64,000 bases of DNA from Thiomicrorhabdus indica (lineage in GTDB: Bacteria; Pseudomonadota; Gammaproteobacteria; Thiomicrospirales; Thiomicrospiraceae): the NCBI RefSeq assembly GCF_004293625.1, contig NZ_CP033040.1, positions 1,364,001-1,428,000 on the forward strand, written 5' to 3'. Both the position numbers and the translations under genes were made by a program. Shown here piece after piece: positions 1 to 59,916 of this stretch (its first letter is position 1; the number at the start of each line of letters is the position of its first letter). Below the pieces are notes generated by a model, which saw only the letters and a list, made by a program, of their open reading frames with translations, was not told where the DNA came from and did no database searches.

Positions 1-852
1 CCAATTTCCAAATGGAAGTTTGATCGCAGTGGTTTTGCTGGTATCCGAGCGATTAAAGATTTATATGAATCAGTTCAGACTGCACCAGAGAAGATTGAAG
101 AAATCGCAGAGAGTTTGACTACGATCGCACAAAAAATTTCTCAATCGCCAAAACAGGCTTTGGTTGTGTCTGATGAACAAGGAATTGAAGAGGCATTACA
201 TGCTGTAGATTCAGTTTGGGGGCAAGAATCCGAGTATGCAGGACAAAAAGAATTTAGCCTTCAGGCCTCAAACTTGCCAGTCAAACAAGCTTGGATTACA
301 TCAACACAAGTGAACTTCTGCGCTATGGCTTATCCTGCCGTGCCAAGCGGTCATCCAGATGCTCCGAAACTGGCTGTTTTAGGTGCTTGTTTACGAAATG
401 GTTTCTTACATACCGCAGTTCGTGAAAAAGGTGGTGCATACGGCGGAGGCGCAAGTTTTAATTCAGAAGCGGCTGGGTTTGTATTTTATTCTTATCGTGA
501 TCCTCGATTGATGGAAACCTTTGATGACTTTGCTCAAGCAAAAGATTGGTTAATGTCTTCGGAAGCGACTCAAGCTAAAGTGGATGAAGCGATTTTGAAC
601 GTGATTTCAGCGATGGATAAACCGGGTTCACCGGCCGGTGAAATGAAAAAAGCGTTTTTTCAGCAACTTTATGGGCGCACTTATGATGTTCGGATGGCAT
701 ACCGACAAGGAGTCATTTCGACCACTATTGATGAATTGCGTGCCTTAGCAGAAAAATACTTTAATCCTGAAAAAGCTTCCTACGCTGTGCTCACTCATAA
801 AGGCACAATTGAAGCGCTTCAAGATCAGGGATTTGAGAGCTTCACTCTTTAA
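1..852 (+). CDS. M16C-family zinc metallopeptidase, C-terminal part
   Basis: The reading frame is open from the first base, so this is the 3' end of a longer gene that begins outside the window. The fragment of about 283 residues carries the signature of the last domain of presequence-protease-like M16C peptidases: a REKGGAYGGGASF stretch followed by FYSYRDPRL. In that family two halves close around an unstructured peptide and the zinc site (HxxEH) lies in the N-terminal half, which is not visible here. The likely role is degradation of short peptides. An ACCGGCCGGT palindrome at 630 encodes Pro-Ala-Gly. The TTG at 115 is not taken as a start because coding sequence continues upstream of it. 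Confidence 0.85.
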   Translation, partial: PISKWKFDRSGFAGIRAIKDLYESVQTAPEKIEEIAESLTTIAQKISQSPKQALVVSDEQGIEEALHAVDSVWGQESEYAGQKEFSLQASNLPVKQAWITSTQVNFCAMAYPAVPSGHPDAPKLAVLGACLRNGFLHTAVREKGGAYGGGASFNSEAAGFVFYSYRDPRLMETFDDFAQAKDWLMSSEATQAKVDEAILNVISAMDKPGSPAGEMKKAFFQQLYGRTYDVRMAYRQGVISTTIDELRALAEKYFNPEKASYAVLTHKGTIEALQDQGFESFTL

Positions 853-879
853 GTTCTTTATGATTTTGATGACTCTTTC

Positions 880-910
880 AAAAAAGCCAATAATTTAATT
901 GGCTTTTTTC
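880..910 (+). terminator. Intrinsic terminator after the M16C peptidase gene
   Basis: AAAAAGCCAA (881-890) pairs with TTGGCTTTTT (899-908) around an 8-nt loop and runs into six T residues. It lies 28 bp after the peptidase stop codon. The A-tract on the other side makes it potentially bidirectional. Confidence 0.85.
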
Positions 911-961
911 GTTTAGAATGAATGACTTTCTAAGTATCTTATATAAATTGGGCAGAAAACG

Positions 962-1817
962 TTGTTGATAACGCCTTATGTTAGAGTAGTTCTTGGACAT
1001 AGAATAATAGCAGGTTTTACGCAAGTGACTTCACAAACTCAGCCAAATATTTTAGACAAAATTGAATACAGAGATCAGTCTGGCCGCGAATATTCACTGG
1101 ATTGCCGCCGTTGTGCATCCATGATAAATTTTGATTTTAGTTATGCGTTTCAACCGATTATTAATGCCGATCTAAAGCAGATATTTGGTTATGAAGCGTT
1201 GGTTAGAGGACCTAATAGTGAATCTGCATGGAGCGTTATTTCGAAAGTTAATGATGATAACCGATATGCATTCGATCAAATCTGTCGTCAAAAAGCGATT
1301 CGTATGGCGGCTGAGCTGAATGTTCAGTCTATGCTCAGTATCAATTTTCTTCCTAATGCTGTATACGAGCCGGAACACTGCATTCAAAGTACCTTAAAAG
1401 CTGCACATGAAGTGAATTTTCCCGTTGAGAAGATTATGTTTGAAGTTACAGAATCTGAAAAAGTCTTAGATCGCAAACATCTCACTAACATCTTCCAGTA
1501 TTACCATTCTCAAGGTTTTACTGTGGCATTGGATGATTTTGGTGCTGGGCACGCAGGGTTGAATATGTTGTCGAGTTTTGTTCCGGATATACTCAAAATT
1601 GATATGGAATTATGATCAAGATAAGGTGAAACAGATTATAGCCAGAAACCTTGTTAAGATGTGTCAAGAGCTTAAGGTAACAGTACTGGCTGAAGGAATT
1701 GAAACCCAAGAAGAATATCAATTCTATCGTGATTTGGGTGTGAACTTATTTCAAGGTTATCTTTTCGCTAAACCCGGTTTTGAGTGTCTGCCCGAAATCG
1801 ACTGGTCGGTTGCTTAA
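962..1817 (+). pseudogene. EAL-domain c-di-GMP phosphodiesterase, frameshifted
   Basis: Two overlapping frames together encode one EAL domain. The first (to 1615) has FQPI, GYEALVRG, SINFLP, FEVTE and ALDDFGAG and then stops just after KIDMEL. The second frame continues with DQDKVKQ, VLAEGIET and LFQGYLFAKP to 1817. Between the two halves a single base stands where the family has about four residues (typically VRNI or IRNI), so roughly 11 bp appear to be lost near 1615. A CxxC (CRRC) precedes the domain, as in a common stand-alone EAL subfamily. The product would lose the later catalytic residues, including the glutamate of LAEGIE, so it is probably inactive. The TTG at 962 is an uncertain start; ATG 1121 is an alternative that omits the CxxC. 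A sequencing error is possible but less likely for a deletion of this size. Confidence 0.7.
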
Positions 1818-1844
1818 GGTATCAAGTGAAAACTGCAAGAAGAA

Positions 1845-1866
1845 CGTCTTTTTATTTAATAAGACG
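1845..1866. terminator. Weak hairpin between the convergent EAL and cnoX genes
   Basis: CGTCTT (1845-1850) and AAGACG (1861-1866) are perfect arms around a 10-nt AT-rich loop, between the 3' ends of two convergent genes. There is no long T-run on either side, so the call is tentative. The palindrome copy at 1881-1890 lies next to it and overlaps the cnoX stop codon by one base. Confidence 0.4.
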
Positions 1867-1889
1867 CTCATCAAATGTTCACCGGCCGG

Positions 1890-2753
1890 TTAAAATAATA
1901 ATGCCTGAAACTTTCGACGGTATTCATTTACCAACTCAGGGTGAGAGCTCTTTAGGTTTTCAAACTGTTCTAATAGCGTCTTTCGTGCATATCCATCCGA
2001 AAAATTTCTATCGACCTGAAATAATATCATTAAATTTTGAAAAGCTTCTTCGTACTGTTGATGAGCGAGGTGAAGCTTGCTTTTTGCTTGTAATAATTCA
2101 GGATTCTTTGGCTTTGATATCAGTTGCTGTTCTATCTCATCTAAACTTGGCGCCCCTTGAAGTTCATAAGCAAGCGTGATTTGTTGCTGTGAAGATTTAC
2201 CGGCCGGTGAAGTTTGAACCTCGTCTGGCAGCTGTTCAAATAGAGATTTTGCTTCAGACAATTTTTCTTGAAGAAGAAACACTTCTATTAAATCGAAATG
2301 TATACCAAAGTTATGAGGGTTTTGTTGGCTCGCTTGTGCCAGTACTTCAAGTGCCTCATCGAATTTACCTTCTTTTTTTAAGACATTCGCTTGGGAGCGC
2401 AGTTCTTCGGTCTCATCTGCCGGCATGTATTTTTCGAGTAATTTTTTGAATTCGGAAATGGGTTGAGCACCTTGCATCTCTTCAACGATTTTGCCATCCA
2501 CTACGACTTTAAAGCTTGGAATGCTTTGAATTGAAAAATGGCTTGAAAGTTCTTGTTGCTCTTCGGTATTCACTTTTGCTAAAAAGAACTGGCCGGCATA
2601 TTCTTGAGTGAGAGCTTCCAACATTGGCATAACTTGTTTACAAGGTCCGCACCAAGGCGCCCAGAAATCTAAAAGTACGGGGATTTTTTCCGACATCTCA
2701 ATAACAGAGGTTTGAAAGTTTTCTGGGGTAATATCTGCAATCATATTTGCCAT
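1890..2753 (-). CDS. cnoX: Chaperedoxin CnoX/YbbN (thioredoxin plus TPR)
   Basis: The 287-residue product has an N-terminal thioredoxin domain (about residues 1-110) with the active-site motif WAPWCGPCK, then helical TPR-like repeats to the C-terminus. This architecture and length match YbbN/CnoX, a holdase that protects substrates from oxidation and passes them to GroEL or DnaK. E. coli CnoX has a degenerate SxxC site, whereas this protein keeps a full CGPC and may be redox-active, as reported for the Caulobacter type. It lies 31 bp downstream of roxA on the same strand and is probably co-transcribed. ATG 2753 is preceded by a purine-rich AAGGAAACC stretch. A palindrome copy at 2199 encodes SPAGK in the linker-rich C-terminal half. 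Confidence 0.88.
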   Translation of the reverse strand: MANMIADITPENFQTSVIEMSEKIPVLLDFWAPWCGPCKQVMPMLEALTQEYAGQFFLAKVNTEEQQELSSHFSIQSIPSFKVVVDGKIVEEMQGAQPISEFKKLLEKYMPADETEELRSQANVLKKEGKFDEALEVLAQASQQNPHNFGIHFDLIEVFLLQEKLSEAKSLFEQLPDEVQTSPAGKSSQQQITLAYELQGAPSLDEIEQQLISKPKNPELLQAKSKLHLAHQQYEEAFQNLMILFQVDRNFSDGYARKTLLEQFENLKSSHPELVNEYRRKFQALLF

Positions 2754-2784
2754 GAGGTTTCCTTGTTCAACGCTCAGTAATAAA

Positions 2785-3954: not shown

Positions 3955-4041
3955 GCTTTGTTCTCTGAAAATGTTAGTCGCACCATTATAGAGAAGTTTG
4001 TTGCAGATGTTAGCTAGAGAAGTTGATAGATTGGTTAACTT

Positions 4042-4051
4042 ACCGGCCGGT
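4042..4051. repeat. ACCGGCCGGT copy between the DUF6858-like gene and roxA
   Basis: This copy lies in the 143-bp gap between two minus-strand genes. It extends to CTTACCGGCCGGTAGG, so only a short stem could form, and no T-run follows. It is therefore not a convincing terminator. Confidence 0.85.
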
Positions 4052-4097
4052 AGGAAATTCTTCTTAATGCCCGGTAAGCAAATTTGAGTCAAAGCTA

Positions 4098-4484: not shown

Positions 4485-4720
4485 GGTTTTCACCCTTCTA
4501 TTAACGAAATATTTTTTAAGGTTTTTAGTCAAGAAAATAATATAAATTATAAAAATAACTTATGAATTATAGTAATTTCTTATGGGTGAATTGATTAAAT
4601 GTTTTTATAGATTTGATTAAAGAGCCTTAAGCTATTTTCTGCATTATGCTGCCCTAATAATTCAATTTTTTGGGGTTAAATGTTGTAATGTGGATAGCCT
4701 ATCGAGCTTGTGGGATTACT

Positions 4721-6121: not shown

Positions 6122-6153
6122 AAAAAGTATTATGTATTATTCACTGAAAAACA

Positions 6154-6219: not shown

Positions 6220-6257
6220 AATGAATAATGCAATTTTAAGATAAGGACTATCTACAA

Positions 6258-7697
<1,440 letters not shown>

Positions 7698-10691: not shown

Positions 10692-10713
10692 AGTTACTGT
10701 TTAGATTGATTCA

Positions 10714-10755: not shown

Positions 10756-10771
10756 TGCTTGGAAATTTATA

Positions 10772-10810
10772 TAAAAAAATACCGGCGAGTAAATCGTTAC
10801 CGGCCGGTAT
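10772..10810 (-). terminator. Terminator of sppA using an ACCGGCCGGT copy
   Basis: ATACCGGC (10779-10786) and GCCGGTAT (10803-10810) form an 8-bp stem. The right arm is part of the palindrome copy at 10799-10808. Read on the minus strand the stem is followed by ATTTTTTT (A-run at 10772-10778 on the plus strand), the form expected for termination after sppA. Confidence 0.75.
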
Positions 10811-10836
10811 TCTTTATAGGATTAAAGCTGAGTTGC

Positions 10837-11852: not shown

Positions 11853-13769
11853 ATGACCCAAGAAAATCCATCCAATTCAATTGATGACTCAAAACAAACT
11901 CAATCGTCTAACAAGTCAAGTGGCGCCAATGAAGAACTAAACCGGCCGGTAGAATTCGATATCAAAGGATTTCTGAAGCAGTTGAGTGAACGTCCCGGTG
12001 TTTACCGTATGCTGGATGCTAAAGGTGACATTATTTATGTGGGCAAGGCGAAAAATTTAAAGCGTCGTGTCAGTAGCTACTTCTTAAAATCGCAGAAAGA
12101 GATAAAAACTGAAGCTATGGTGGCACAAGTGGCGTCGATAGAGGTCACGATTACCGACACAGAAGCCGAAGCGTTGATTCTTGAAAATACCCTTATAAAA
12201 CGCCACAAACCCAAATATAACATTCTTTTTAGAGATGATAAGTCTTATCCGTATATCTATGTTTCAACGCAAAAAGCATTTCCTTCGCTCAGCTTTTTTC
12301 GCGGTGCGAAGCGCAAAAAAGGCGACTATTTTGGGCCTTTTCCTAATGCTTCGGCCGTGCATCAAACGATGGATGTTTTGCAAAAAATTTTCCCTGTTCG
12401 ACAATGCCCAGAAAGCGTGTTTCGTCACCGTTCACGACCTTGTTTGCAATATCAAATTAAACGCTGTTCAGGCCCTTGTGTCGAAGGGTTGGTTTCAAAA
12501 GAAGCCTATGCACAAGATGTCCGACACACTTTGATGTTTTTGCAAGGTAAAAGCTTTGATGTGATCGAAGAACTTGGTCAACAGATGGAACAAGCGTCAA
12601 TGGCACTGGAATTTGAAGAAGCGGGGATTTTGCGTGATCGAATTTCGGCACTGAGAACGGTTCAGAGTCAACACATTATCAACCAGCCGGGTGATAAAGA
12701 CATGGATGTGTTGGCGATTTACGAGCAAGCCGGAGTGTTTGCTTTATGTTTGATGATGTATAGAGGTGGCAACCTTTGGGGAAGTGAAGTTTTTTATCCC
12801 AAAGTACCGGCAGATTTACCGGCCGGTGAAATTTTTAGTGCATTTATTTCTCAGCATTACAGTTTGCATCCGTTACCGAAGCTCATTATCTTGGAAGAAG
12901 ATTTTGAAGAGCGCGATACCATACAGAAAGCCTTATCCGAACAGGTAAAAAACCCAGTCAGATTGCGGGTGGCGAATACGCATAATGACAAGGGTTTGAT
13001 TAATCTTGCCCAAACTAATGCGCAAGCGGCTTTAAAGCAGCATTTGTCGCAAAAAGCCTCTCAGTTTGAACGGGTCACGGCATTGCAAGAGGTTTTAGGA
13101 TTAAAAACACCGCCGAATTACATGGAGTGTTTTGATATCAGTCACACTCAGGGTGCGCAGACCATAGCCAGCTGCGTTGTGTTTAAAGAGGGAATTCCTA
13201 GTACGCAGCATTATCGAAAATTTAATATTGAAGGCATTCAAGGTGGCGATGATTATGCCGCTATGCATCAAGTGTTAACCCGGCGTTATCAGCGCTTAAA
13301 AAATGAATCGGTGAAACTGCCTGATTTGGTGATTGTTGATGGTGGAAAAGGGCAATTGAATCAAGCCATTGATGTATTAAAAGATTTAGAGCTTGAAAGT
13401 TTACCTTTAGTTTCTGTTGCAAAAGGCGAAGGCCGAAAAGCCGGACTGGAAATTTTATACACACCGCACAACAAACAAGGCATTGATTTGCAACCTGATG
13501 ATCGAGCGCTACATCTAATCAATCACATTCGTGATGAGGCACACCGTTTTGCGATTACCAGTCACCGCAAAAAACGCCAAGCAACGTTTTCACAATCTCG
13601 ATTGGAAGATATTGAAGGCATTGGTCCAAAAACACGAAAAAAACTCCTGATGCATTTTGGTGGCCTGACGGAAGTTAAAAACGCTGCTGTTTCAGAGCTG
13701 CAAAAAGTTAATGGCATTAGTGAGGCGAAGGCTCAACAAATCTACGATTATTTTCATGGCGAAGCTTGA
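11853..13769 (+). CDS. uvrC: Excinuclease ABC subunit C
   Basis: A 638-residue UvrC. The GIY-YIG endonuclease domain (GVYRMLDAKGDIIYVGKAKNLKRR, about residues 49-72) starts after a polar N-terminal extension of about 40 residues rich in Ser, Asn and Gln. A UVR motif follows (about residues 235-270), then the RNase H-like 5'-incision domain (ECFDISHTQG, VDGGKGQL) and C-terminal helix-hairpin-helix motifs (IEGIGPKTRKKLLMHFGG). It makes both incisions in nucleotide excision repair with UvrA and UvrB. Palindrome copies at 11941 (NRPVE, in the extension) and 12818 (LPAGE, linker) fall in poorly conserved parts. A shorter start near the domain cannot be excluded. As in enterobacteria, it is adjacent to pgsA and a Gly-Cys-Leu tRNA group. 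Confidence 0.95.
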   Translation: MTQENPSNSIDDSKQTQSSNKSSGANEELNRPVEFDIKGFLKQLSERPGVYRMLDAKGDIIYVGKAKNLKRRVSSYFLKSQKEIKTEAMVAQVASIEVTITDTEAEALILENTLIKRHKPKYNILFRDDKSYPYIYVSTQKAFPSLSFFRGAKRKKGDYFGPFPNASAVHQTMDVLQKIFPVRQCPESVFRHRSRPCLQYQIKRCSGPCVEGLVSKEAYAQDVRHTLMFLQGKSFDVIEELGQQMEQASMALEFEEAGILRDRISALRTVQSQHIINQPGDKDMDVLAIYEQAGVFALCLMMYRGGNLWGSEVFYPKVPADLPAGEIFSAFISQHYSLHPLPKLIILEEDFEERDTIQKALSEQVKNPVRLRVANTHNDKGLINLAQTNAQAALKQHLSQKASQFERVTALQEVLGLKTPPNYMECFDISHTQGAQTIASCVVFKEGIPSTQHYRKFNIEGIQGGDDYAAMHQVLTRRYQRLKNESVKLPDLVIVDGGKGQLNQAIDVLKDLELESLPLVSVAKGEGRKAGLEILYTPHNKQGIDLQPDDRALHLINHIRDEAHRFAITSHRKKRQATFSQSRLEDIEGIGPKTRKKLLMHFGGLTEVKNAAVSELQKVNGISEAKAQQIYDYFHGEA

Positions 13770-14204: not shown

Positions 14205-14211
14205 ATATTCT

Positions 14212-14368: not shown

Positions 14369-14414
14369 ACCGGCCGGTGTTTTGTAATGAATTGTAAAAA
14401 AGATACCGGCCGGG
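14369..14414. repeat. Paired palindromes after pgsA (one exact, one near copy)
   Basis: An exact ACCGGCCGGT at 14369-14378 and a one-mismatch ACCGGCCGGG at 14405-14414 lie 36 bp apart in the gap between pgsA and the tRNA promoter. Each can fold alone or pair with the other. On the minus strand the first copy met is followed by ATCTTTTTT, so it may act as the pgsA terminator. Confidence 0.6.
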
Positions 14415-15370: not shown

Positions 15371-17706
15371 ACAGTTTGCTGAGTTTTAGAAGAATTCGCG
15401 ATACGCTTTAAGCTTATAAATAAAGCGATAAAAATAAGTGAAAAAGCCAAGAGCCAGAGGCTACTGGTTGTTGGGTGTCGCTCAAAAATCATAATTTGGT
15501 AAAAACTTACTGCAACCGCATAGCCCAAGAATAAACTCCAGCCTGCACTAAACAGTGCCCATTTTGAGCCGAGTTCTTGCTTTAAGGCACCAAAAGTCGC
15601 CACACAAGGGAAATAAAGCAAGATTAATAACAGATAAGCAAACGCGCCGACCTGCCCATCAAAATAGTTTGCCATTTTGTCTAGGGTACTTAACTCAAAC
15701 CCTTGTTCATCAGCTATTAGAGATTTATCTTCAATTGATTGAATACTACTTAATCCTAGTGGGTCGGCTAAATCTGCAAATAAATTTTGTAGGTTGTCTC
15801 CAATCGTTGCACTGGCTTCGGTTAAGGCGGGGATTAAGGCGTAGGAATCTTCCGAAGCACTAATTGGAGTTTTTTGTTGGTAAAGTGCATCAAGCGAGCC
15901 AACAACCACTTCTTTAGCCAAGATTCCGGTAAACAATCCAACGGTTGCCGGCCAGTTCTCTTCAGTAATGCCTAGAGGCGCAACAATTGGGGTTGCAGCT
16001 TTGGCAATTTTACTTAGAACAGAATCAGATTGATTTTCATGCCCAAAAGATCCGTCACTGCCTAAACTGTTTAGAACATTTAGAACCATCACAACAATAA
16101 CAATGACTTTCCCTGCGTCGATAATAAAGCTCTTAAGTTTATTGCGAGCATTCAGTAAAACATTCAGGGCAGTGGGTTTATGGTAAATTGGTAATTCCAT
16201 AAGCAACGGTGAAACCTTACCTTGCAGCAGTGTGTATTTTAAAAGCAGTGCCGTCAGCACAGCAGCCAGAATGCCGACAAGATACAGTGTGAAGACAATT
16301 AAAGCGGCATTATCTGGAAAGAAAGCGGTTGCAAACATTACGTAGACAGTCAGGCGTGCGCTACAGGACATAAAAGGTGTCATTAGGGCGGTTTTGATAC
16401 GGTCTTTTGAGTCTGGCAAAGTTCGTGTTGCCAATACGGCTGGTATATTGCAACCAAACCCTACCACGAGTGGTACGAATGCTTGGCCGGATAGGCCGAG
16501 CTTGCGCATCAGGTTGTCAACCACAAGAGCTGCACGTTGCATATAGCCGGTATCTTCAAGAATGGAAAGCAAAATAAACAAAGCACCAATGACAGGAATA
16601 AATGTCGCAACCACTTGAATGCCGCCGCCAATCCCATTCGCCAGAACGGTGATTAACCACTCTGGGGCATTGATTTGCTGGAGCAGATAGCTTGGCGTAT
16701 CAACAAAAAGTGCTTGTGCACCTAAATCGAAAAAATCGATAAAGACATTCCCAAAGGCAATAGACGTTGCGAAAAGTAGATACATCACCAATAAGAAAAT
16801 CGGCATTCCTAAAATCGGGTGTAAAACCCAGTGGTCAATAACATCGGTAGTATTACGGGTAAATTGGTCTGTGCGGGTTTCACTGGCATGAGCAGAATCA
16901 TGAGCAAACTGAAAGTATAAATCTGCACTGATAAGTTCAAGATCTTCTGAGTAAGTTTTCTCAAGTTGTTGTTTTTCTTGCTGACAAAAGGTTCTTACAT
17001 TTTCAGGAGCACTTTGTGGGTTCACTAACATCTGTAATGATTTCCAACAAGAACGCTTCTCTTTTATTTCAACATGTCCTTCCATCATAAGCTGCAGTTT
17101 CCCTAAACTGATAGCGAGCTCTTCTGGGAGTTCAAAGCTTATTGACGTTTTTTGGTTTAAATATTCAGGCAGTTTCTGTTTTAGCTCATCAATACCTTTG
17201 TTGTGATAAGCAGAAATAGGAATAACAGGACAGCCTAATGCATTGGAAAGTTTTTCAATATCAATGTGTAGATTGTAATCTTTAAGCAAATCCATGCGAT
17301 TCAAGACAACGACCACTGGAAGACCCATATGAAGAAGTTGCGCTGTTAAAAACAATTGGCGTTCTAAGTTTGTGGCATCTATGACATTAATGATTAAATC
17401 AGCCGGTTGGCATTGCAAAAAATTACAGGCAACGCGTTCATCTAAACCACAGTGCTGAGATTGTTCAAGGCTGTAAACCCCTGGCAAATCTATTAGATGA
17501 AACGGTGTTTGATTGATTTTAAAATGCCCAGATTTTTGTTCAACTGTCACTCCAGGCCAATTTCCTGTTGTTTGTTGTGCGCCTGTTAAGCGATTGAATA
17601 GGGTGGTTTTCCCACAGTTAGGATTACCAATCAATGCAATTTGATAGTGATGTTGGGCACTATACCGGCCGGTATGGTTTTCAGTGTTTTTGGGAATGAC
17701 TGTCAT
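15367..17706 (-). CDS. feoB: Ferrous iron transporter FeoB
   Basis: A 779-residue inner-membrane Fe(II) transporter. The N-terminal G domain has GNPNCGKTT (residues 27-35), the G2 threonine in WPGVTVEQ, DLPGVYSL (G3) and NRMD (G4). A helical spacer follows, and then two membrane Gate regions with the conserved cysteine in GFGCNIPAV and again in FMSCSARL. It is coupled to feoA by a 4-bp ATGA overlap and to feoC by another. A palindrome copy at 17664 encodes HTGRY in the non-conserved N-terminus before the G domain. Confidence 0.97.
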   Translation of the reverse strand: MTVIPKNTENHTGRYSAQHHYQIALIGNPNCGKTTLFNRLTGAQQTTGNWPGVTVEQKSGHFKINQTPFHLIDLPGVYSLEQSQHCGLDERVACNFLQCQPADLIINVIDATNLERQLFLTAQLLHMGLPVVVVLNRMDLLKDYNLHIDIEKLSNALGCPVIPISAYHNKGIDELKQKLPEYLNQKTSISFELPEELAISLGKLQLMMEGHVEIKEKRSCWKSLQMLVNPQSAPENVRTFCQQEKQQLEKTYSEDLELISADLYFQFAHDSAHASETRTDQFTRNTTDVIDHWVLHPILGMPIFLLVMYLLFATSIAFGNVFIDFFDLGAQALFVDTPSYLLQQINAPEWLITVLANGIGGGIQVVATFIPVIGALFILLSILEDTGYMQRAALVVDNLMRKLGLSGQAFVPLVVGFGCNIPAVLATRTLPDSKDRIKTALMTPFMSCSARLTVYVMFATAFFPDNAALIVFTLYLVGILAAVLTALLLKYTLLQGKVSPLLMELPIYHKPTALNVLLNARNKLKSFIIDAGKVIVIVVMVLNVLNSLGSDGSFGHENQSDSVLSKIAKAATPIVAPLGITEENWPATVGLFTGILAKEVVVGSLDALYQQKTPISASEDSYALIPALTEASATIGDNLQNLFADLADPLGLSSIQSIEDKSLIADEQGFELSTLDKMANYFDGQVGAFAYLLLILLYFPCVATFGALKQELGSKWALFSAGWSLFLGYAVAVSFYQIMIFERHPTTSSLWLLAFSLIFIALFISLKRIANSSKTQQTV

Positions 17707-19956: not shown

Positions 19957-20472
19957 ATGAGCAACCTACAGAATTCAACCATCCAAGGATTTAGACCGAT
20001 TATTCCAAAGCAACCTAAAATCTTGGTTCTTGGAAGCATGCCAAGTGTCAAATCCTTAGAGGATGAATTTTATTACGCACATTCTCGAAATGCCTTTTGG
20101 CCGATTATTGAGAACTTGACCGGCCGGTCTTTAAAGAGTATTTCCGAAAAAATCTCTGCATTGGATGACCTAGGGATCTTTTTGTGGGATGTGCTCCAAG
20201 CTTGTGAACGTAAAGGAAGTTTGGATAGCGCCATTCGAAATCCCGAAGCGAATGATTTTGAAGGGATTTTTACAGATTACCCCGAGATTCAGGCAGTTTG
20301 CTTTAATGGTCAAGCTGCAGAGAAATTGTTCCGGCAGCATGTTCTTAAACACCAATCCTTACCGGCCGGTCTCGTTTATCGATCACTTCCCTCAACCAGT
20401 CCTGCCAATGCAAAATTAAAAATCGAAGATAAATACTTGATTTGGGAAGAAAATTTGCGTCCTTTTTTGTAG
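19957..20472 (+). CDS. DNA-deoxyinosine glycosylase (UDG superfamily, family 6-like)
   Basis: A 171-residue member of the uracil-DNA glycosylase fold. LVLGSMPSVKSL near residue 30 matches motif 1 of the family 6 hypoxanthine-DNA glycosylases, followed by FYYAHSRNAFWPII. The C-terminal LPSTSPAN (about residues 146-153) is the substrate-loop motif. Family 6 enzymes remove hypoxanthine, formed by adenine deamination, and this is the likely role. The closest alternative is a Mug/TDG-type enzyme, but GSMPS and YYAHxRNxFW favour family 6. Two palindrome copies (20119 TGR and 20361 PAG) lie 242 bp apart in this short gene. Confidence 0.82.
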   Translation: MSNLQNSTIQGFRPIIPKQPKILVLGSMPSVKSLEDEFYYAHSRNAFWPIIENLTGRSLKSISEKISALDDLGIFLWDVLQACERKGSLDSAIRNPEANDFEGIFTDYPEIQAVCFNGQAAEKLFRQHVLKHQSLPAGLVYRSLPSTSPANAKLKIEDKYLIWEENLRPFL

Positions 20473-37763: not shown

Positions 37764-37784
37764 ATAAACTTACCGGCCGGTAAG
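37764..37784 (-). terminator. Terminator of murB built on an ACCGGCCGGT copy
   Basis: CTTACCGGCCGGTAAG (37769-37784) is a perfect 16-bp palindrome containing the copy at 37772. On the minus strand it is followed by TTTATTTTTTCC, a good T-run. It lies between the convergent mscS-like and murB genes. Confidence 0.75.
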
Positions 37785-38883: not shown

Positions 38884-40236
38884 TTGAGCCAGCTAAAACT
38901 TTCAAAAGAAACTTGGTCTTCCCAGTCAATTTTTATCCTTGCGGGGATTGGCTCCGCAGTAGGACTGGGAAATCTCTGGAAATTCCCTTATATCACTGGT
39001 GAATATGGGGGGTCAGCTTTTTTGTTGGTTTATCTTTTTTGTGTGCTGTTGGTTGGCTTGCCGCTTTTAATTGCTGAAATTACCTTAGGACGAGCAGGAC
39101 AGGCGAATCCTGTACAAGGTATGGCGAATTTAGCTCGAGAAAATAAGGCTTCAAAGCTTTGGTCATTACTTGGGTTAAATGGGGTTTTAGCCGCTGGTTT
39201 TATCTTGTCTTTCTATTCCGTCATTGCAGGTTGGTCTGGTGCTTATTTTGTTTCAAGTCTTCAAGGAAATTTTATTTCTCAAGATGTGGCAACCATTCAG
39301 GGGGATTTTTCAGCCTTGCTGAGTTCACCATGGCAACTGTTATTTTGGCATACGGCTTTTAGTTTGCTGGCCGTTTGGATTGTCTCTAGAGGTGTTAAAA
39401 ATGGTTTAGAGAAAGCCATCAATATTTTAATGCCAGCTTTATTTGCGATTTTGTTAATTTTATTGGGGTATGTGGTGGCTTCAAGAGGGTTTGAAGAAAG
39501 CGTTACCTTTTTGTTTCAGCCAGATTTTTCGAAATTAACCGCTGAAGCGGTTCTGGTTGCAATGGGACATGCGTTTTTTACTTTGAGTCTGGGATTGGGT
39601 GTCATGATGGTGTATGGCTCTTATTTAAACCAACAAAGCTCAATCGTTAAAGCATCAATTTGGATTGCTGTTGCTGATACAGCCATTGCCCTGTTAGCAG
39701 GGGTGATTATTTTCTCAATTGTCTTCGGTAATAATTTAGATGCAGCTTCGGGACCGGGCTTGTTATTCCAAACGTTACCAGTGGCCTTCAGTGAAATGTG
39801 GGGTGGTTGGTTTTTTGGCACACTTTTTTTTGGTTTGGTTGTTTTGGCGGCGCTGAGTTCAGCTATTTCTTTAATTGAACCTGCTGTCAGTTGGTTTGAA
39901 CAAAACTGGGGAATTCAACGTAATAAAGCGGCCTGGGGATTTGGGTTTGTCACTTGGGTGTTAGGAATTGGGACCGTTTTGTCTTTTAATACTTGGTCTG
40001 ATATTTATCTATTTTCAGACAAAACTTTCTTTGACAGTCTAGACTTTCTAACGGCAAATATAATGTTACCGGCCGGTGGATTCTTTATGGCAATTTTTGT
40101 TGGCTGGGTACTTTCGAAAGAGAAACTAAAAGGTGAGTTGGGTTTACAGGAACGTACTTTAAATCAGTATCGCGTCACCTTAAGATGGATCGTCCCTGTA
40201 CTAGTAATGATTGTCTTTATTTACAATTTAATCTAA
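38884..40236 (+). CDS. Sodium-dependent transporter, NSS/SNF family
   Basis: A 450-residue LeuT-fold membrane protein with about 11 helices. The N-terminal motif AGIGSAVGLGNLWKFPY is the NSS signature lining the sodium and substrate sites. The length is typical of bacterial members with 11 helices (MhsT-like). Substrates are usually amino acids; the identity is unknown. The TTG start at 38884 is preceded by AAAGGAAA. A palindrome copy at 40068 encodes LPAGG in a late helix. Confidence 0.93.
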   Translation: MSQLKLSKETWSSQSIFILAGIGSAVGLGNLWKFPYITGEYGGSAFLLVYLFCVLLVGLPLLIAEITLGRAGQANPVQGMANLARENKASKLWSLLGLNGVLAAGFILSFYSVIAGWSGAYFVSSLQGNFISQDVATIQGDFSALLSSPWQLLFWHTAFSLLAVWIVSRGVKNGLEKAINILMPALFAILLILLGYVVASRGFEESVTFLFQPDFSKLTAEAVLVAMGHAFFTLSLGLGVMMVYGSYLNQQSSIVKASIWIAVADTAIALLAGVIIFSIVFGNNLDAASGPGLLFQTLPVAFSEMWGGWFFGTLFFGLVVLAALSSAISLIEPAVSWFEQNWGIQRNKAAWGFGFVTWVLGIGTVLSFNTWSDIYLFSDKTFFDSLDFLTANIMLPAGGFFMAIFVGWVLSKEKLKGELGLQERTLNQYRVTLRWIVPVLVMIVFIYNLI

Positions 40237-43155: not shown

Positions 43156-44268
43156 ATGCACGCAATATCAGAAAACGTTGAGCCTAGAATAGCTATTCTA
43201 GGCGCAGGGCTTTTAGGTCGCTTGATGGCTTATCATCTAAAAGACCATGCAAAGGTGTTTTTATATGACAAAGATCAAGGTGATGCAAAACAAAGCGCGG
43301 CTTACCTAGCCGCAGCGATGTTGGCACCTTTGGCTGAATCGGCAGAAAGTAGCATTGGAGTCATGCGATTAGGTGAATATTGTCTGGAGCGTTGGAAAGA
43401 GATTTTGGCTGATTTACCTGAATCCGTCTTTTTTCAACAAAACGGCTCACTACTGCTTGCTTTTGAACAAGATCGATCCAGTTTGCAAAATCTGCAAAAT
43501 AATCTCAAAGCTAGAAATTTTCAAAAGGTTGATTCTCAAGGCATTGCTAACTTAGAACCCGAGATAAACCAGAGATTTCAAGTTGGGTTGTTTTTGCCTG
43601 ATGAAGGACAGCTGGATAATCGCCACTTACTTAAAGTCTTAGCAAAGGTTTTGCAAAATTCTAAATCAGTCAACTGGCAAACGGGTGTTGATGCACAAAT
43701 TGATGGGAGTAACGTTTCTATCAACGGTTTAAAGAATTCATTTGATTGGATTTTAGATTGTCGCGGTCTTGGTTCCAAGCCTGATCAAGCTGATTTACGT
43801 GGTGTTCGAGGTGAAGTCATTCGCTTGAGAGCGCCAGATGTGAATTTACACCGGCCGGTAAGATTAATGCATCCACGTTATCCCATTTATATTGCACCTA
43901 AACCGAATCATGAATTTGTGGTTGGTGCGACGCAATTGGAAAGTGAGGATCAGCGCAAAGCAACCGTTCGTTCAACACTGGAGTTATTATCAGCGTGTTT
44001 TTCGGTTCACTCCGGTTTTGCTGAGGCAGAGATTTTATCTAATGAATCAGGACTCCGCCCAGCCTATTTGGATAATGAGCCTCAAATGCGCGTTTCCGGT
44101 AATGTCATCAGTTTAAATGGACTTTATCGCCACGGTTACTTACTGTCACCAGTTTTGGTGGACATGTGTGTGGCGCACATTTTGGATGAAATGATTAATC
44201 CATATTTTTGTGAACAGATGCCACATATTCTAAAAATTGATTCTGGGAATATGGAGGTGCCAGCGTGA
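43156..44268 (+). CDS. thiO: Glycine oxidase ThiO
   Basis: A 370-residue FAD-dependent amine oxidase. The N-terminal dinucleotide motif is ILGAGLLGRLMAYHL (about residues 14-28), and the C-terminal SGLRPAY and NGLYRHGYLLSP are typical of ThiO. It oxidises glycine to dehydroglycine for the thiazole ring, using oxygen, which marks an aerobic route instead of ThiH. The gene starts 2 bp after thiC and overlaps thiS by 4 bp. A palindrome copy at 43850 encodes LHRPVR. Confidence 0.92.
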   Translation: MHAISENVEPRIAILGAGLLGRLMAYHLKDHAKVFLYDKDQGDAKQSAAYLAAAMLAPLAESAESSIGVMRLGEYCLERWKEILADLPESVFFQQNGSLLLAFEQDRSSLQNLQNNLKARNFQKVDSQGIANLEPEINQRFQVGLFLPDEGQLDNRHLLKVLAKVLQNSKSVNWQTGVDAQIDGSNVSINGLKNSFDWILDCRGLGSKPDQADLRGVRGEVIRLRAPDVNLHRPVRLMHPRYPIYIAPKPNHEFVVGATQLESEDQRKATVRSTLELLSACFSVHSGFAEAEILSNESGLRPAYLDNEPQMRVSGNVISLNGLYRHGYLLSPVLVDMCVAHILDEMINPYFCEQMPHILKIDSGNMEVPA

Positions 44269-44483: not shown

Positions 44484-44493
44484 ACCGGCCGGT
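44484..44493. repeat. ACCGGCCGGT copy between thiS and thiG
   Basis: It extends to a 16-bp perfect palindrome TTTACCGGCCGGTAAA (44481-44496), leaving a GGCC loop. It lies 26 bp before the thiG start and could fold in the mRNA between the two cistrons, without a T-run. Confidence 0.9.
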
Positions 44494-47589: not shown

Positions 47590-48246
47590 TTAATCCAATT
47601 TACGAATTTGCAGTAAAACCCCAAATAGAGGATGGTCAATATAATGAAGTTCATCGGATTTCATTTTACGCTGGGCGCTTATATGAAATGGCCAATGAGT
47701 TGGTAGGTCATTCAGTGGTATTTTTTGCATTTGAGCAAATTCAGATCTTACTGCATTCGGTATCATCCGCTCATAGTTGAAATCAATTTCTATGTGGTTA
47801 AAACGAGATTGATACATTTTTACGGTTCCGTAAAAACTGGTTGAACCCTGGTTTGCTTCTAAAAAAAGTTTGGGAGACTCTTTTGCTCCTAATGCATTTT
47901 GAACCCAACTTTGATGCGTAATAATTCGGTAATTTTTTGCTACTCTTGAGGCTTCTGCATCTAACATTGGGTTTGCATTTTCGATAAACAAAGGAGACCG
48001 GCCGGTTGCTGTTAAATCCTGCACATTTTCAATCTGAGCTGAATCAACAATGCTTGGCCAATATTCTTCCGTCCAACCTTTTAATGCAAGATGTTCAAAG
48101 ATAATCATATCAATATGATAACGTTGGATTTTTTCTTCTGCAGAAGCCTTTGTCGTGAATAATCCTGCTAAACAAGCGACAAGAACTAAAGCGACGGTTG
48201 TAGGAGAGGTTATTTTCGCTGTTGGTTTAGAGTGCGTCAAAATCAC
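47590..48246 (-). CDS. CsiV-like periplasmic protein
   Basis: A 218-residue exported protein. The N-terminal hydrophobic segment (VALVLVACLAGLFTTKASA) may be cleaved. YHIDMIIFEH, then AKNYRIITHQSWVQ, MYQSRFNHIEIDF and HPLFGVLLQI match CsiV proteins, which are commonly found next to mfd in Gammaproteobacteria. Its role is poorly defined. It starts 4 bp after mfd on the same strand. A palindrome copy at 47997 encodes TATGRSPL. Confidence 0.75.
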   Translation of the reverse strand: MILTHSKPTAKITSPTTVALVLVACLAGLFTTKASAEEKIQRYHIDMIIFEHLALKGWTEEYWPSIVDSAQIENVQDLTATGRSPLFIENANPMLDAEASRVAKNYRIITHQSWVQNALGAKESPKLFLEANQGSTSFYGTVKMYQSRFNHIEIDFNYERMIPNAVRSEFAQMQKIPLNDLPTHWPFHISAQRKMKSDELHYIDHPLFGVLLQIRKLD

Positions 48247-52254: not shown

Positions 52255-53583
52255 ATGAGCAATAATTGGATTTACCACTGGGTGCAAATAATGGCTCATC
52301 ATAAAAAAATGCTCGGCCTGTTCTGGTTGATGCTGATTGTTGTCAGCAGTATAGGCGTGCTGACAACAGATAGCAGTCACCTATCAGTTCTCTGGACAGC
52401 CGAAGACACTTTTTTAAGACCTTTAGAGGTGTTATTTTTGAGCTCGGTTATTATCAGCCTATTTTTTGGCTGGCAGTCTGAGTCTGTAAAATCAGGATTG
52501 CTCAACCTTCTATTTTTGAATCTCGCTTATATCATAACGATTGGGTTGGCTAGTTGGTTTGATATTTATTGGGGCAGTCTGGAATTTTTAGCATTAATCA
52601 TTGCGTCGACATTAGTTACCGCTAACTTTATTCATTTGTTAAGTACTTTACACAGGGAAATGGCGCGAGGGCTTTTTCAGTTTGACGCTGTTGCGGAGGC
52701 GGTAAAGCTCAATCATTCACCCATTTTTCTTTCTAATTTAACGACGGCACTGGGCGTTATTTGTATTGCTTGGTTTGAACCTGAGTTAGCCGAGATGGCT
52801 TGGGTCATTTCATTGGGGGTTTTGGTAAGTTATTTATTTAGTGTGACGCTGTTTCCTTGGTTACTACTTACTTTCTTTTTGGAGTTTCGTGTTGGTAATT
52901 CGCGTGATCGTCAAGGTTTTTACCAATGGATGAAAAAACTCGAAGCTCTGACACATTATCCAATTTTGCTACCTGCAATCAAAATTGCTTTAGCTTTGGG
53001 GTTTGCAGTCTTATTCATTTTATTTTTCAGCTGGATGGACAATCTTCATTTGTTACCGGCCGGTAGTTTAGCCGCATTAGGGACTTTTCTAGTCATAATG
53101 TGGGGAGGATTAGGAATGTGGTGGCAACAGTTTTCCTGGTCAACCGCCATTGTCTTAACAATCAGTTTGGTCGCTATTGTTACCAATATGATTATTGCAA
53201 TAATGGTGATGAAATTCGATTTTCTACCGGCCGGTAATATTCCAGAATTTTTGCCAAATAAAGATTTATTTTGGTTATTAATGTGGATTGCGCCAATGGG
53301 CATCGTTGTAGATGATTTAATTCATTTTTTTTCCAGAATGAAGCGTGCAAAATCAACCGTTTTTGCTTCACCAAAAGAGTCTGTTCGCTTTGCGATGATT
53401 AGTGTTGGGCGGCCGATATTGGTTACCTCCATAACTTTAGTTATGGTTATGTTATTAATATTTTTTGTGAGTGAACCGATTTTAGGTTTTATTGCGCTAA
53501 ATGTATTGGTTTCAGTTGTTTTAGTTTCTTTAATTGTGCTTTTTATCATGCCTTTTGTCATGATTGCTCAATACAAAAAATAG
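52255..53583 (+). CDS. RND/MMPL-like membrane protein without porter domains
   Basis: A 442-residue protein of about 12 predicted helices. NLTTALGVICIAWFEPELAEMAWVISLGVLVSYLFSV and PMGIVVDDLIHFFSRMKRA recall the repeated transmembrane halves of RND/MMPL proteins, including a charged helix motif VDDLIHF. The large periplasmic domains that normally sit between helices 1-2 and 7-8 are missing, so it cannot pump in the usual way. The role is unknown. I start at ATG 52255, with GAGG at 52239-52242; the frame begins at 52237. Palindrome copies at 53055 and 53226 encode LPAG twice, 171 bp apart. sqr follows after 200 bp. Confidence 0.7.
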   Translation: MSNNWIYHWVQIMAHHKKMLGLFWLMLIVVSSIGVLTTDSSHLSVLWTAEDTFLRPLEVLFLSSVIISLFFGWQSESVKSGLLNLLFLNLAYIITIGLASWFDIYWGSLEFLALIIASTLVTANFIHLLSTLHREMARGLFQFDAVAEAVKLNHSPIFLSNLTTALGVICIAWFEPELAEMAWVISLGVLVSYLFSVTLFPWLLLTFFLEFRVGNSRDRQGFYQWMKKLEALTHYPILLPAIKIALALGFAVLFILFFSWMDNLHLLPAGSLAALGTFLVIMWGGLGMWWQQFSWSTAIVLTISLVAIVTNMIIAIMVMKFDFLPAGNIPEFLPNKDLFWLLMWIAPMGIVVDDLIHFFSRMKRAKSTVFASPKESVRFAMISVGRPILVTSITLVMVMLLIFFVSEPILGFIALNVLVSVVLVSLIVLFIMPFVMIAQYKK

Positions 53584-55966: not shown

Positions 55967-57217
55967 ATGTTTAAACTCCCTTATGAATTTCTTTTGAGTT
56001 GGCGATACACTCGCGCAAAACGTCGTAATGGTTTTATCTCCTTTATTTCCCTTTCATCCATGATTGGTATCGCACTCGGTATCACCGCATTAATCACGGT
56101 GTTATCGATTATGAACGGGTTTCAACAAGAGTTACGTGAACGAATTCTTGGAATGACTGCGCACATGACCTTGACAGAAGCAGATAACAGACTAAGAGAT
56201 TGGCAGAGTGTGTATTCTCAAGTGATTGATTATCCTAAGATATTAGGCGCTGCACCGAATATTTCAGAGCAGGCAATGTTAACCGGTTCAGGAGAAGTCA
56301 AAGGAACGATGATTCGAGGGGTATTACCTGAACAAGAAGGGCAAGTTTCAGATATTGAAAACCAGATGGTTTTAGGAAGTTTTGAACAATTGCAACCTAA
56401 AGCATACCAAATAATTTTAGGGTCGGAATTGGCTTCAACGCTTGGCGTTTCTTTAGGTGATAAGGTTACAGTTATTGCACCACAAGGCACGGTATCTCCT
56501 TTAGGTGTGGTGCCTAGAATCAAACGTTTTACTGTTATTGGAGTGTTTGAAGCGGGCATGCATGAATATGATAGCGGTATGGCATTTATTCATTTAAAAG
56601 ATGCGCAAACGCTATTCAAATATGGCGAAGCGGTGGGCGGACTTCAACTAAAGATTGATGATTTGTTCAAAGTGTTCGAAGTTCGTGAAGATCTGGGAAA
56701 ACATCTTACCGGCCGGTATTATGTGCGTGATTGGACACAACAACATGTAAACTTTTTTAAAGCGATTGAAATGGAAAAGCGCATGATGTTCATTGTTCTT
56801 GCATTAATAATTATGGTTGCCGCGTTTAATATCGTTTCTACCATGGTAATGGTTGTGACAGATAAGCAAAGTGATATTGCAGTTTTAAGAACGATTGGTG
56901 CCTCTCCTTTTAATATTCAAAGCATTTTTATTTTGCAAGGCTTGATTATCGGTTCCATAGGCGTGATTTTAGGATTAATTGGTGGAATAAGTCTGGCATC
57001 AAATATCGATGTAATCGTGCCACTTATTGAACAACTGCTTGGTTTCCAGTTCTTCCCTGCGGATGTGTATTACATCAGTAAGGTTCCTTCTTTAATTATT
57101 TGGAGCGATGTCTATTCTGTTGCGATTGTTGCTTTTGTTCTAACGTTAATTGCAACCCTTTATCCAGCATGGCGGGCGTCCAAAATTCAACCTGCTGAGG
57201 CGTTACGCTATGAATAA
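55967..57217 (+). CDS. lolC: Lipoprotein-releasing ABC transporter permease LolC/E type
   Basis: A 416-residue MacB-like permease. One N-terminal helix (FISLSSMIGIALGITALITVLSIM), a large periplasmic domain with MTLTEADNRL, then three C-terminal helices with STMVMVVTDKQSDIAVLRTIGAS and [17 protein letters not shown]. LolCDE releases outer-membrane lipoproteins to LolA. Only one permease is present with lolD, so it may work as a homodimer (LolF type) or have a distant partner. It overlaps lolD by 8 bp. GTG 55961 is an alternative start. A palindrome copy at 56708 encodes HLTGRY. Confidence 0.9.
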   Translation: MFKLPYEFLLSWRYTRAKRRNGFISFISLSSMIGIALGITALITVLSIMNGFQQELRERILGMTAHMTLTEADNRLRDWQSVYSQVIDYPKILGAAPNISEQAMLTGSGEVKGTMIRGVLPEQEGQVSDIENQMVLGSFEQLQPKAYQIILGSELASTLGVSLGDKVTVIAPQGTVSPLGVVPRIKRFTVIGVFEAGMHEYDSGMAFIHLKDAQTLFKYGEAVGGLQLKIDDLFKVFEVREDLGKHLTGRYYVRDWTQQHVNFFKAIEMEKRMMFIVLALIIMVAAFNIVSTMVMVVTDKQSDIAVLRTIGASPFNIQSIFILQGLIIGSIGVILGLIGGISLASNIDVIVPLIEQLLGFQFFPADVYYISKVPSLIIWSDVYSVAIVAFVLTLIATLYPAWRASKIQPAEALRYE

Positions 57218-57911: not shown

Positions 57912-57912
57912 C

Positions 57913-59832
57913 ATGATTTCAATTCAAAACCTGTCATTACGCGCTGGCACAAAACCTTTATTAGATTCAGCAAATCTAACGATTCATCCCGGACAAAAAA
58001 TAGGCCTAGTTGGAAAAAATGGCGCCGGTAAAAGTACCTTTTTTAAAGCTGTTTTAGGTGAAACGACTATTGATTCAGGTGACATTAAAGTTCCAAATAA
58101 CTGGCAAATCGGTTACGTGGAGCAAGAAACAAAAGACCTAAGTGTAGGAATGTTAGATTATGTATGCTTTGGGGATAGTCTATATTTTGAAGTCATGCAA
58201 TCACTTGAGCAAGCAGAGAGTACTCAAAACAATCAAGCGTTGGTTAAGGTCTATGATCAAATTGAACACATTCAGGCTTATGAAGTGCCGTTAAAAGCTA
58301 AGCAAATGTTATTTGGGTTAGGGTTTAACCAACTGGATTTTGATAAGCAGTTGTCAGAATTTTCAGGTGGGTGGCAGGTGCGTTTGAAATTGGCGAGAGC
58401 CTTAATGCAGCGATCAGACTTACTTTTGCTTGATGAACCTACGAACCACTTGGATATTGAAGCGGTCACTTGGCTGGAACTTTGGCTCAAATCTTATCAA
58501 GGGGCGATTTTGGTCATTTCGCATGATCGAAACTTCTTGGATGAGGTCGTTCAAGGTATTGCAGAGATCGACCAGCAGAAGATTCAATACTATTCTGGAA
58601 ATTTTGCGGCGTTTGAAAGACAACGTCACGAGCAGTTGATGCAACAACAAAGTCTGCATGACAAGCAAAAACAACAGATGCAGCACCTTAAAACATTCAT
58701 TTCCCGTTTCAAAGCCAAGGCAAGTAAAGCCAAGCAAGCTCAGAGTCGTGTCAAAGCGTTGGAGCGCATGGAGCAGGTAGCTGCCGTCCAAGCCTGTACA
58801 GATTTTCATTTTGCATTTAGTGAGCCGAAACAGATGCCGGATCCAATGTTGGAGATTCAAGCGTTAGATTTTGCTTACAATGATAAAACCATTTTAGATA
58901 AGGTTAATCTTGTTGTGAGAAGTGGTGACAGGATTGGGCTTGTTGGAGTGAATGGATCAGGTAAAACCACTCTACTAAAATTATTAGTAGGTGATTTAAA
59001 ACCTGTAGCAGGGAAAATACAGCTAAGCAAAGGTTTAAAAATTGGCTATTTTTCACAACACCAACTAGAAACGCTTCGCCCTGAATGGAGTCCTTTACAG
59101 CATCTTTTAGCAATGGAAGAGGCTCCGTCTGATCAAGAATCGCGAGACTTTTTAGGTCAATTTGGTTTTTCTAATCAGCAAGCACTGGAGACAATCGAAA
59201 ATTTTTCAGGGGGAGAAAAAGCTCGTTTAGCACTGGCTTTGATCCGTTTCCAAGAACCCAATTTGATCATTCTCGATGAGCCTACCAACCATTTGGATAT
59301 GGAAACTCGTGATGCCCTAGAAATGGCAATCAATGATTTTACCGGCGGCGTGATTATTGTTAGTCACGATAAGCAACTTTTAAATGCCTGTGTAGACCAG
59401 TTTTGGTGGGTACATCAAGGACAGGTTGAATTGTATTTTGGTTCATTGGATGAATACCTACAGGATCAAATGAAGCGTGTTCGTGATGAAAACCGTTTAC
59501 TTTCCAACACGGGTAAAAACTCCGATAAAAATGAAGTCAATAAAAAAGCCATTCGACAGACAAATGCCCATATTCGTAAACAACTTGAACAGCAGCTTAA
59601 GCCGCTAAAGAAGCAGTTGAAAAAAATGGAAACTCAACTTGAGAAAAGCCAAAATAGATTAGAGGAAATCCATTTATTGATGGAAAACCCTGAATTGTAC
59701 GATGCACAGAACAAAGAGAGGCTCGAACCCATCTTACTGGAAGAAGCACAATTGAAAAAAACAATTGAAGAGTGTGAAGAGCAGTGGTTAGAGCTTGAGG
59801 AAGAGATGGAAGAAATTCGTCAATCTCAATAA
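57913..59832 (+). CDS. yheS: ABC-F ATPase, YheS type
   Basis: A 639-residue soluble protein with two ABC domains: Walker A GKNGAGKST and GVNGSGKTT, signatures FSGGWQVRLKLARAL and FSGGEKARLALALI, and Walker B LLLDEPTNHLD and IILDEPTNHLD. An acidic linker and a long C-terminal coiled coil (about 540-639) match YheS. ABC-F proteins act on ribosomes. It starts two bases after lolD and has a palindrome-built terminator. Confidence 0.94.
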   Translation: MISIQNLSLRAGTKPLLDSANLTIHPGQKIGLVGKNGAGKSTFFKAVLGETTIDSGDIKVPNNWQIGYVEQETKDLSVGMLDYVCFGDSLYFEVMQSLEQAESTQNNQALVKVYDQIEHIQAYEVPLKAKQMLFGLGFNQLDFDKQLSEFSGGWQVRLKLARALMQRSDLLLLDEPTNHLDIEAVTWLELWLKSYQGAILVISHDRNFLDEVVQGIAEIDQQKIQYYSGNFAAFERQRHEQLMQQQSLHDKQKQQMQHLKTFISRFKAKASKAKQAQSRVKALERMEQVAAVQACTDFHFAFSEPKQMPDPMLEIQALDFAYNDKTILDKVNLVVRSGDRIGLVGVNGSGKTTLLKLLVGDLKPVAGKIQLSKGLKIGYFSQHQLETLRPEWSPLQHLLAMEEAPSDQESRDFLGQFGFSNQQALETIENFSGGEKARLALALIRFQEPNLIILDEPTNHLDMETRDALEMAINDFTGGVIIVSHDKQLLNACVDQFWWVHQGQVELYFGSLDEYLQDQMKRVRDENRLLSNTGKNSDKNEVNKKAIRQTNAHIRKQLEQQLKPLKKQLKKMETQLEKSQNRLEEIHLLMENPELYDAQNKERLEPILLEEAQLKKTIEECEEQWLELEEEMEEIRQSQ

Positions 59833-59888
59833 GAAAAAAGAGTAGTTTTAAATAAAAACTAGCAAAATATTAATCTTCTTAGGTGAAA

Positions 59889-59916
59889 AAAGACTTTACC
59901 GGCCGGTAAAGTCTTT
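59889..59916. terminator. Bidirectional terminator with an ACCGGCCGGT core
   Basis: AAAGACTTTACC (59889-59900) and GGTAAAGTCTTT (59905-59916) form a perfect 12-bp stem with a GGCC loop, centred on the palindrome copy at 59898. The minus strand continues in six T residues. It sits between the convergent yheS and DUF2892 genes. Confidence 0.88.

Follow-up and report, generated by a model that had tools for sequence, protein, structure and literature searches.

A 10-bp perfect palindrome, ACCGGCCGGT, is highly iterated in the genome of Thiomicrorhabdus indica. It was followed here from a 64-kb window, the whole stretch of DNA analysed (genome positions 1364001-1428000), to the complete genome and to related bacteria. 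Together with the A/T-rich arms that flank it, ACCGGCCGGT is most likely a self-DNA uptake word preferred by the natural-transformation machinery, a reading to which the genomic patterns described below lead us to give a probability of about 0.65. It looks like a single dialect within a family of iterated words, most of them dyad-symmetric, that spans the order. More tentatively, and at somewhat less than even odds, this family may constitute a third, independently evolved lineage of genome-word self-DNA recognition, found in the order that includes Hydrogenovibrio; its receptor would read a two-fold symmetric element of ~24 bp as a dimer or at two sites.

The window contains 28 exact copies of ACCGGCCGGT spanning positions 630-59907, as an earlier note on this DNA had counted, compared with a mean of 0.03 and a maximum of 1 in 100 dinucleotide shuffles of the same stretch. 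The runner-up 10-bp palindrome occurs three times. The octamer CCGGCCGG is found 30 times and 28 of these lie inside the full 10-mer, which upholds that note's view of the flanking bases as part of the word. The copies, all entered with strand ".", are as follows.

630..639, ACCGGCCGGT copy, exact match
1881..1890, ACCGGCCGGT copy, not wholly within an open reading frame (ORF; simple ORF rule)
2199..2208, ACCGGCCGGT copy, exact match
4042..4051, ACCGGCCGGT copy, exact match
10799..10808, ACCGGCCGGT copy, intergenic
11941..11950, ACCGGCCGGT copy, uvrC codons ~30-33, in a poorly conserved N-terminal stretch
12818..12827, ACCGGCCGGT copy, uvrC LPAG, residues ~322-325, in a variable stretch
14369..14378, ACCGGCCGGT copy, intergenic
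17664..17673, ACCGGCCGGT copy, exact match
20119..20128, ACCGGCCGGT copy, exact match
20361..20370, ACCGGCCGGT copy, exact match
20607..20616, ACCGGCCGGT copy, exact match
21819..21828, ACCGGCCGGT copy, exact match
22620..22629, ACCGGCCGGT copy, exact match
22836..22845, ACCGGCCGGT copy, exact match
23207..23216, ACCGGCCGGT copy, exact match
31926..31935, ACCGGCCGGT copy, exact match
32500..32509, ACCGGCCGGT copy, exact match
32987..32996, ACCGGCCGGT copy, exact match
37772..37781, ACCGGCCGGT copy, intergenic, between convergent genes
40068..40077, ACCGGCCGGT copy, exact match
43850..43859, ACCGGCCGGT copy, exact match
44484..44493, ACCGGCCGGT copy, intergenic
47997..48006, ACCGGCCGGT copy, exact match
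53055..53064, ACCGGCCGGT copy, exact match
53226..53235, ACCGGCCGGT copy, exact match
56708..56717, ACCGGCCGGT copy, exact match
59891..59914 (word at 59898-59907), ACCGGCCGGT with two 7-bp arms, an example of the ~24-bp full element, intergenic

The whole genome (a single contig of 2,829,883 bases, ~42% GC in a sample) holds 1025 copies of ACCGGCCGGT, or 1 per 2.8 kb, against one copy of the reversed control word, and the excess is therefore not restricted to the 64-kb window. About 1000 copies per genome had been forecast in the earlier note, and neither of the outcomes it named as counting against the word, a genome count near expectation or an excess limited to the window, was seen. Allowing up to one mismatch in RCCGGCCGGY, exact words counted in, gave 1424 sites genome-wide versus 348 for the control. 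Within 864 kb of the genome, 91 one-mismatch 10-mers stand beside 317 exact words; 61 of the 91 mismatches fall at the two outermost bases and 30 at the inner eight. The copies are thus near-perfect, and decayed copies are few inside the octamer. Counts in 20-kb bins are under-dispersed (63 bins, mean 7.5, variance/mean 0.59, lower-tail P 0.004).

The word is the centre of a longer element. When the halves of 472 sites (from 1.264 Mb of the genome) were pooled, positions 6-8 from the dyad were A (61, 58, and 51%), position 10 was A or T (39 and 44%) and positions 11-12 were T (56 and 58%), with background composition beyond about position 14. The element is thus dyad-symmetric and ~24 bp long, with a left arm AAWnTTT, the central ACCGGCCGGT and a right arm AAAnWTT. 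In 75% of sites, one arm or both have two or three T's at positions 11-13, versus 37% expected by chance, and left and right arms vary almost independently of each other (correlation 0.06).

Is this word peculiar to T. indica? Among 58 genomes (this one and 57 relatives) no other is rich in ACCGGCCGGT: 31 congeners have 0-15 copies, and the highest count outside T. indica is 20, in a genome whose control reaches 45. By our reading of 13-20 kb samples, however, 11 of 20 relatives have a high-copy word of their own, different from ACCGGCCGGT and likewise centred on GGCC. The word ACCAGGCCTGGT occurs 181-718 times in 12 of the 58 genomes, which belong to four genera and have a control count of 0 (0-84 copies in the remainder). 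Of 62 genomes from the order, 32 contain the octamer CAGGCCTG in 236-1173 copies, and the control reaches at most 28 in them. The remaining 30, some of them incomplete assemblies, have 0-74 copies of CAGGCCTG (12 in T. indica and 74 in G021). Further dialects include AGCAGGCCTGCT (11 copies per 75 kb in G008), AACAGGCCTGGT and AACAGGCCTGTT (8 and 6 in 100 kb of G005), ACCAGGCCTGCT alongside ACCAGGCCTGGT (5 and 8 in 60 kb of G075; 8 and 3 in 40 kb of G035), CCAGGCCTGG with a free next base (18 of 27 CAGGCCTG in G070) and the asymmetric AACAGGCCGGGT (31 copies in 120 kb of G021).

A T-tract recurs in several relatives whose words differ, as if one recognition system used different words. Read outward from the dyad, the half-element is CCGGTaAa.ttt in T. 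indica (212 sites), CCTGGTaa.t in G030 (40 sites), CCTGCT.A.TTT in G008 (26 sites), CCTGt..a.ttt in G025 (32 sites), CCTGtTcagttt in G005 (39 sites), CCTGG.c..TtTt in G070 (27 sites) and CCTGGT...Ttt in seven congeners pooled (33 sites). A T-tract 10-12 bp from the dyad is present in six of these seven profiles. It passes the threshold solely at position 10 in G030 and solely at position 12 in G018 (14 sites), is below threshold in G019 (16 sites), G075 (31) and G035 (20), and is found only on the AACAGG side in G021 (59 sites). Because of this shared placement of the T-tract, ACCGGCCGGT looks like a family dialect and not an unrelated repeat.

Possession of a word changes readily. On a UvrC tree of 22 congeners (13 word-bearing and 9 word-free), word presence requires four changes, so loss, gain or dialect change is frequent; T. 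indica stands alone among word-free lineages, with modest support. The outer limit of the family was sought with CCAGGCCTGG in 370 genomes of the class, representing ~166 families, nearly all from different families or genera, at a completeness of at least 90%. Five sampled family members had 747, 263 and, in the other three including T. indica, 0-1 copies. In the 365 genomes of other families the count never exceeded 46, although many modestly exceed the reversed control (46 vs 5, 32 vs 0). Judged by this word alone, the system does not extend beyond a single order; dialects lacking this 10-mer, including ACCGGCCGGT, were not sought in the 365.

The words arise mostly via substitution in weakly conserved stretches of protein. 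When 1.298 Mb of this genome was compared with 1.42 Mb sampled from relatives, 79 coding words gave 131 word-homologue pairs; the word codons align without a gap in 113 pairs and with a gap in 18, from which it follows that most words arose by substitution. The 16 residues around the word have an identity of 47.9%, whereas random positions drawn from these alignments reach 61.0% (Wilcoxon P 1e-10, on pairs that are non-independent). Both words in UvrC lie in variable stretches, as judged from 8 and 10 of 21 relatives, those with a plus-strand alignment at the site. Inheritance of word positions was considered and dropped: a CAGGCCTG or CAGGCCGG of the relative lies within 8 residues in 6 of the 131 pairs versus 3.35 expected, not clearly above chance. 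By a simple longest-ORF rule, 209 of the 317 words in 864 kb are within ORFs versus 274 expected from coding density, so that non-coding DNA is enriched. Most coding words (142 of 209, 68%) use the frame encoding xPAG, in 63 cases as LPAG.

How does this compare with known words? Neisseriaceae and Pasteurellaceae are described by Helsem et al. (2025, PMC12616744) as the only families known to have uptake words. The Pasteurellaceae uptake signal sequence (USS; AAGTGCGGT, ACAAGCGGT) has a high-copy 9-bp core and AT-rich segments at about helical-turn spacing, the first of which runs from A's to T's; USS arise by substitution and have subclade-specific types (PMC1626085, 2006). The word of T. indica shares the high copy number, AT segments, substitution origin and lineage-specific types and, by eye, each half reads CCGGT and then AAAnWTT, like the end of the USS (GCGGT) and its segment 2. 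In the USS, however, an asymmetric core is followed by AT segments downstream, whereas here two facing halves, each reading CCGGT and each with its own arm, form a perfect dyad in place of the asymmetric core AAGTGCGGT/ACAAGCGGT. There are also more dialects here than the two USS types, and they belong to another order of Gammaproteobacteria.

The DNA uptake sequences (DUS) of Neisseriaceae fall into dialects throughout the family that keep the same inner core, and an obvious word is missing from some members (Frye et al., 2013, PMC3630211), much like the GGCC-centred dialects and word-free relatives seen here. DUS are asymmetric and are described as lacking flanking motifs (PMC1626085), in contrast to the symmetric, armed word of T. 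indica. One-mismatch DUS outnumber exact DUS in all species, yet by just 21% in K. oralis (PMC3630211), whereas here exact copies prevail by 317 to 91. In Simonsiella muelleri, 1294 pairs of DUS overlap in a dyad-symmetric arrangement, and the authors raised dimer-based recognition for them (PMC3630211). According to Treangen et al. (2008, PMC2397512), both DUS and USS lie in those regions of the core genome that are permissive. The properties of DUS and USS that recur here are a copy excess over chance, substitution origin at permissive sites and, in the form of GGCC-centred words, dialects.

Parts of a type IV pilus uptake route appear to exist in T. indica, judging by matches above curated cut-offs to ComEC/Rec2 (position ~1,189,207) and to two adjacent PilT/PilU-family ATPases. 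The dyad would be read by a DNA receptor on the cell surface, possibly a minor pilin that works as a dimer or two-site assembly, and word-bearing fragments would be captured more often. Recombination would then spread the word and repair damaged copies, a molecular drive. If receptor specificity shifted, the old words would become neutral and a new dialect would accrue at new positions; the symmetric ACCGGCCGGT and AGCAGGCCTGCT and the half-switched, one-armed AACAGGCCGGGT could be snapshots of a receptor changing half-site by half-site. Given the likeness of the half-site to the end of a USS core and its first AT segment, a common half-site grammar may underlie asymmetric and symmetric uptake words alike. 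An uptake role had been among the possibilities raised in the earlier note, and it gains indirect support from the dialects, AT arms, substitution origin, permissive locations and the ComEC and PilT/PilU-family genes. Word-poor stretches also fit a build-up of words in long-resident DNA, in a test that is not clean. One 17-kb gap is a word-free glycan-synthesis locus with WbsX and RgpF genes. An island at bases 1-11346 from genome position 2,054,001 adjoins mutS, has a phage-type integrase at each end and contains HipA, WYL and FtsK-domain genes.

Several observations weigh against an uptake word. The island retains one word in ~11 kb, within the WYL gene; two other word-poor stretches, a 16-kb gap with MauG, MbnP and EAL genes and a metabolic stretch, are metabolic or regulatory in content and not mobile. 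The evenness of the 20-kb counts is lost with the first 23 bins only (P 0.14), and gaps among the first 100 copies look exponential (coefficient of variation 1.13). The perfect dyad departs from the asymmetry of DUS and USS, and the density is lower than their ~1 per kb (PMC1626085). ComEC is present in 56 of the 62 genomes of the order, word-bearing and word-free alike, and so was discarded as a discriminator. When 1.298 Mb (46%) of the genome was scanned for prepilin motifs, two matches appeared, neither credible, with a pattern that recovered 13 of 17 listed prepilins of relatives. GspH was entertained as a FimT-like receptor and rejected; its three weak matches lie in four-prepilin-gene clusters that by eye resemble the type II secretion genes gspGHIJ. 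No word-specific receptor candidate turned up from the prepilin scan or the GspH matches. Literature on transformation, uptake sequences or competence in Thiomicrorhabdus, Thiomicrospira and Hydrogenovibrio was not found in a search that left subscription papers mostly outside, which is weak evidence of novelty. Papers containing ACCGGCCGGT were unrelated by title, CAGGCCTG with "uptake" gave no title on this order among the matches listed, and for palindromes of Thiomicrospiraceae only phages of vent symbionts appeared, by title.

The properties of the word could also be those of a protein-binding site. If ACCGGCCGGT were the bent, A/T-armed operator of an abundant dimeric chromosome-organizing or nucleoid protein, with a specificity of the species' own and weak selection on ~1000 sites, then its perfect dyad, arms symmetric about that dyad, fairly even 20-kb counts and occurrence both within and between genes would all be expected. 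We nevertheless consider this main rival, also among the possibilities in the earlier note, unlikely. Dialects switch between congeners and word positions do not clearly coincide in the homologue pairs, and therefore a thousand sites would need rebuilding in new locations by tiny individual selection. The G021 word is asymmetric with a single-sided arm, an unexpected choice for a homodimer, and 28 of the 62 genomes of the order (T. indica and G021 set aside) have just 0-67 copies of CAGGCCTG. It can be argued that drive by biased uptake accounts better than selection on nucleoid sites for near-perfect copies, new positions and fast turnover. A role in transcription termination or as an RNA element is scarcely credible, since 209 of 317 copies are within ORFs, although 15 of the 54 copies outside ORFs in the first 464 kb are flanked by convergent genes, and stems could form within two close word pairs, which are spaced by 21 and 29 bp.

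HIP1 and alternate highly iterated palindromes (HIPs) are GC-rich, reach high frequency and can be replaced by another in a relative (Elhai, 2015, PMC4390886), as can the word described here; by title, the literature on such palindromes concerns mostly cyanobacteria. In Elhai's model a methyltransferase reads part of the word, and methylation-dependent repair makes and keeps it. HIPs have a cognate methyltransferase, whereas in this single-contig genome the PF00145 and PF01555 methylase models found no match, further methylase families being unsearched, and neither did Vsr (PF03852); of 14 control genomes, 10, 11 and 5, respectively, do contain matches to these models. The octamer CCGGCCGG has no A for an adenine methylase, and A/T arms like those of ACCGGCCGGT are not among the HIP features described in the available part of PMC4390886. 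A by-product of very-short-patch repair would likewise involve Vsr and the C5 methylase (PF00145). With these three families unmatched, an origin in methylation or repair is disfavoured and was given up as the leading idea, and we regard a HIP-like by-product as very improbable; of the earlier note's suggestions, the repair by-product and, as far as cytosine methylation is concerned, the methyltransferase target thus lose ground. Donor-side drive, in which a packaging or export machine (a gene transfer agent or DNA secretion) favours word-bearing DNA and the word spreads without receptor choice, would be expected to leave the same genomic pattern via recombination. It is given similarly little credence: nothing was found in its favour, though no such machine was searched for, and known word systems are described as working on the recipient side (PMC12616744).

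If an uptake word is the correct reading, a third family, rich in dialects within a single order and among kin of the chemolithotroph Hydrogenovibrio, would offer a natural series for studying the start, shift and loss of uptake specificity and the joint evolution of a receptor with its thousand sites in the genome. A nucleoid-protein site with unusually high turnover would also be unexpected. On either reading, species boundaries and gene flow in these genera can readily be traced with the words.

A number of minor observations concern other genomes. G013 and G024 have 15 copies of ACCGGCCGGT each, against controls of 3 and 2; samples of 20 kb from G013 and 80 kb from G024 contained none. Relics or imports are possible. 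A scan of unrelated genome contigs for paired ACCGGCCGGT returned at least 119 stretches, the T. indica record not being among those listed. Among the matches listed, 79 are actinobacterial by record title, and the copies per stretch number two in 99, three in 18 and four in 2; these were taken as mostly chance, and ACCGGCCGGT was not accepted as a word of unrelated genomes. Five stretches of low or middle GC, whose ACCGGCCGGT pairs are close together and in several cases bordered by A/T-rich sequence, look less like chance and are perhaps hairpin repeats or parts of other word-rich genomes (Cyclobacteriaceae, Bacteroidetes, Auribacterota metagenome-assembled genomes and Oligosphaera ethanolica). 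AACAGCGG was rejected as a USS-like word both of the word-free G003, where 8 of 12 copies in 40 kb are one local repeat, and of G024, where four 20-kb stretches hold just 4, 2, 2, and 2. The word-free congeners G017, G029 and G023 have 33, 20 and 7 CCCCCCCC per 20 kb (expected <=0.3), and these C/G runs of at least 8 are perhaps an iterated element of their own or an assembly effect. In G020 the 12-mer CTCGCTGCCGCC occurs 98 times in 40 kb, presumably as a local repeat, with similar cases in G024, G061 and G064. G063, which shares a genus label with G064 and has no CAGGCCTG excess, has four copies of CCCAGCCTGGCA within 20 kb, which may be a further dialect or just a local repeat. Within the window itself, positions 13984-14287 of the minus strand hold a tRNA cluster, Leu(taa)-Cys(gca)-Gly(gcc).

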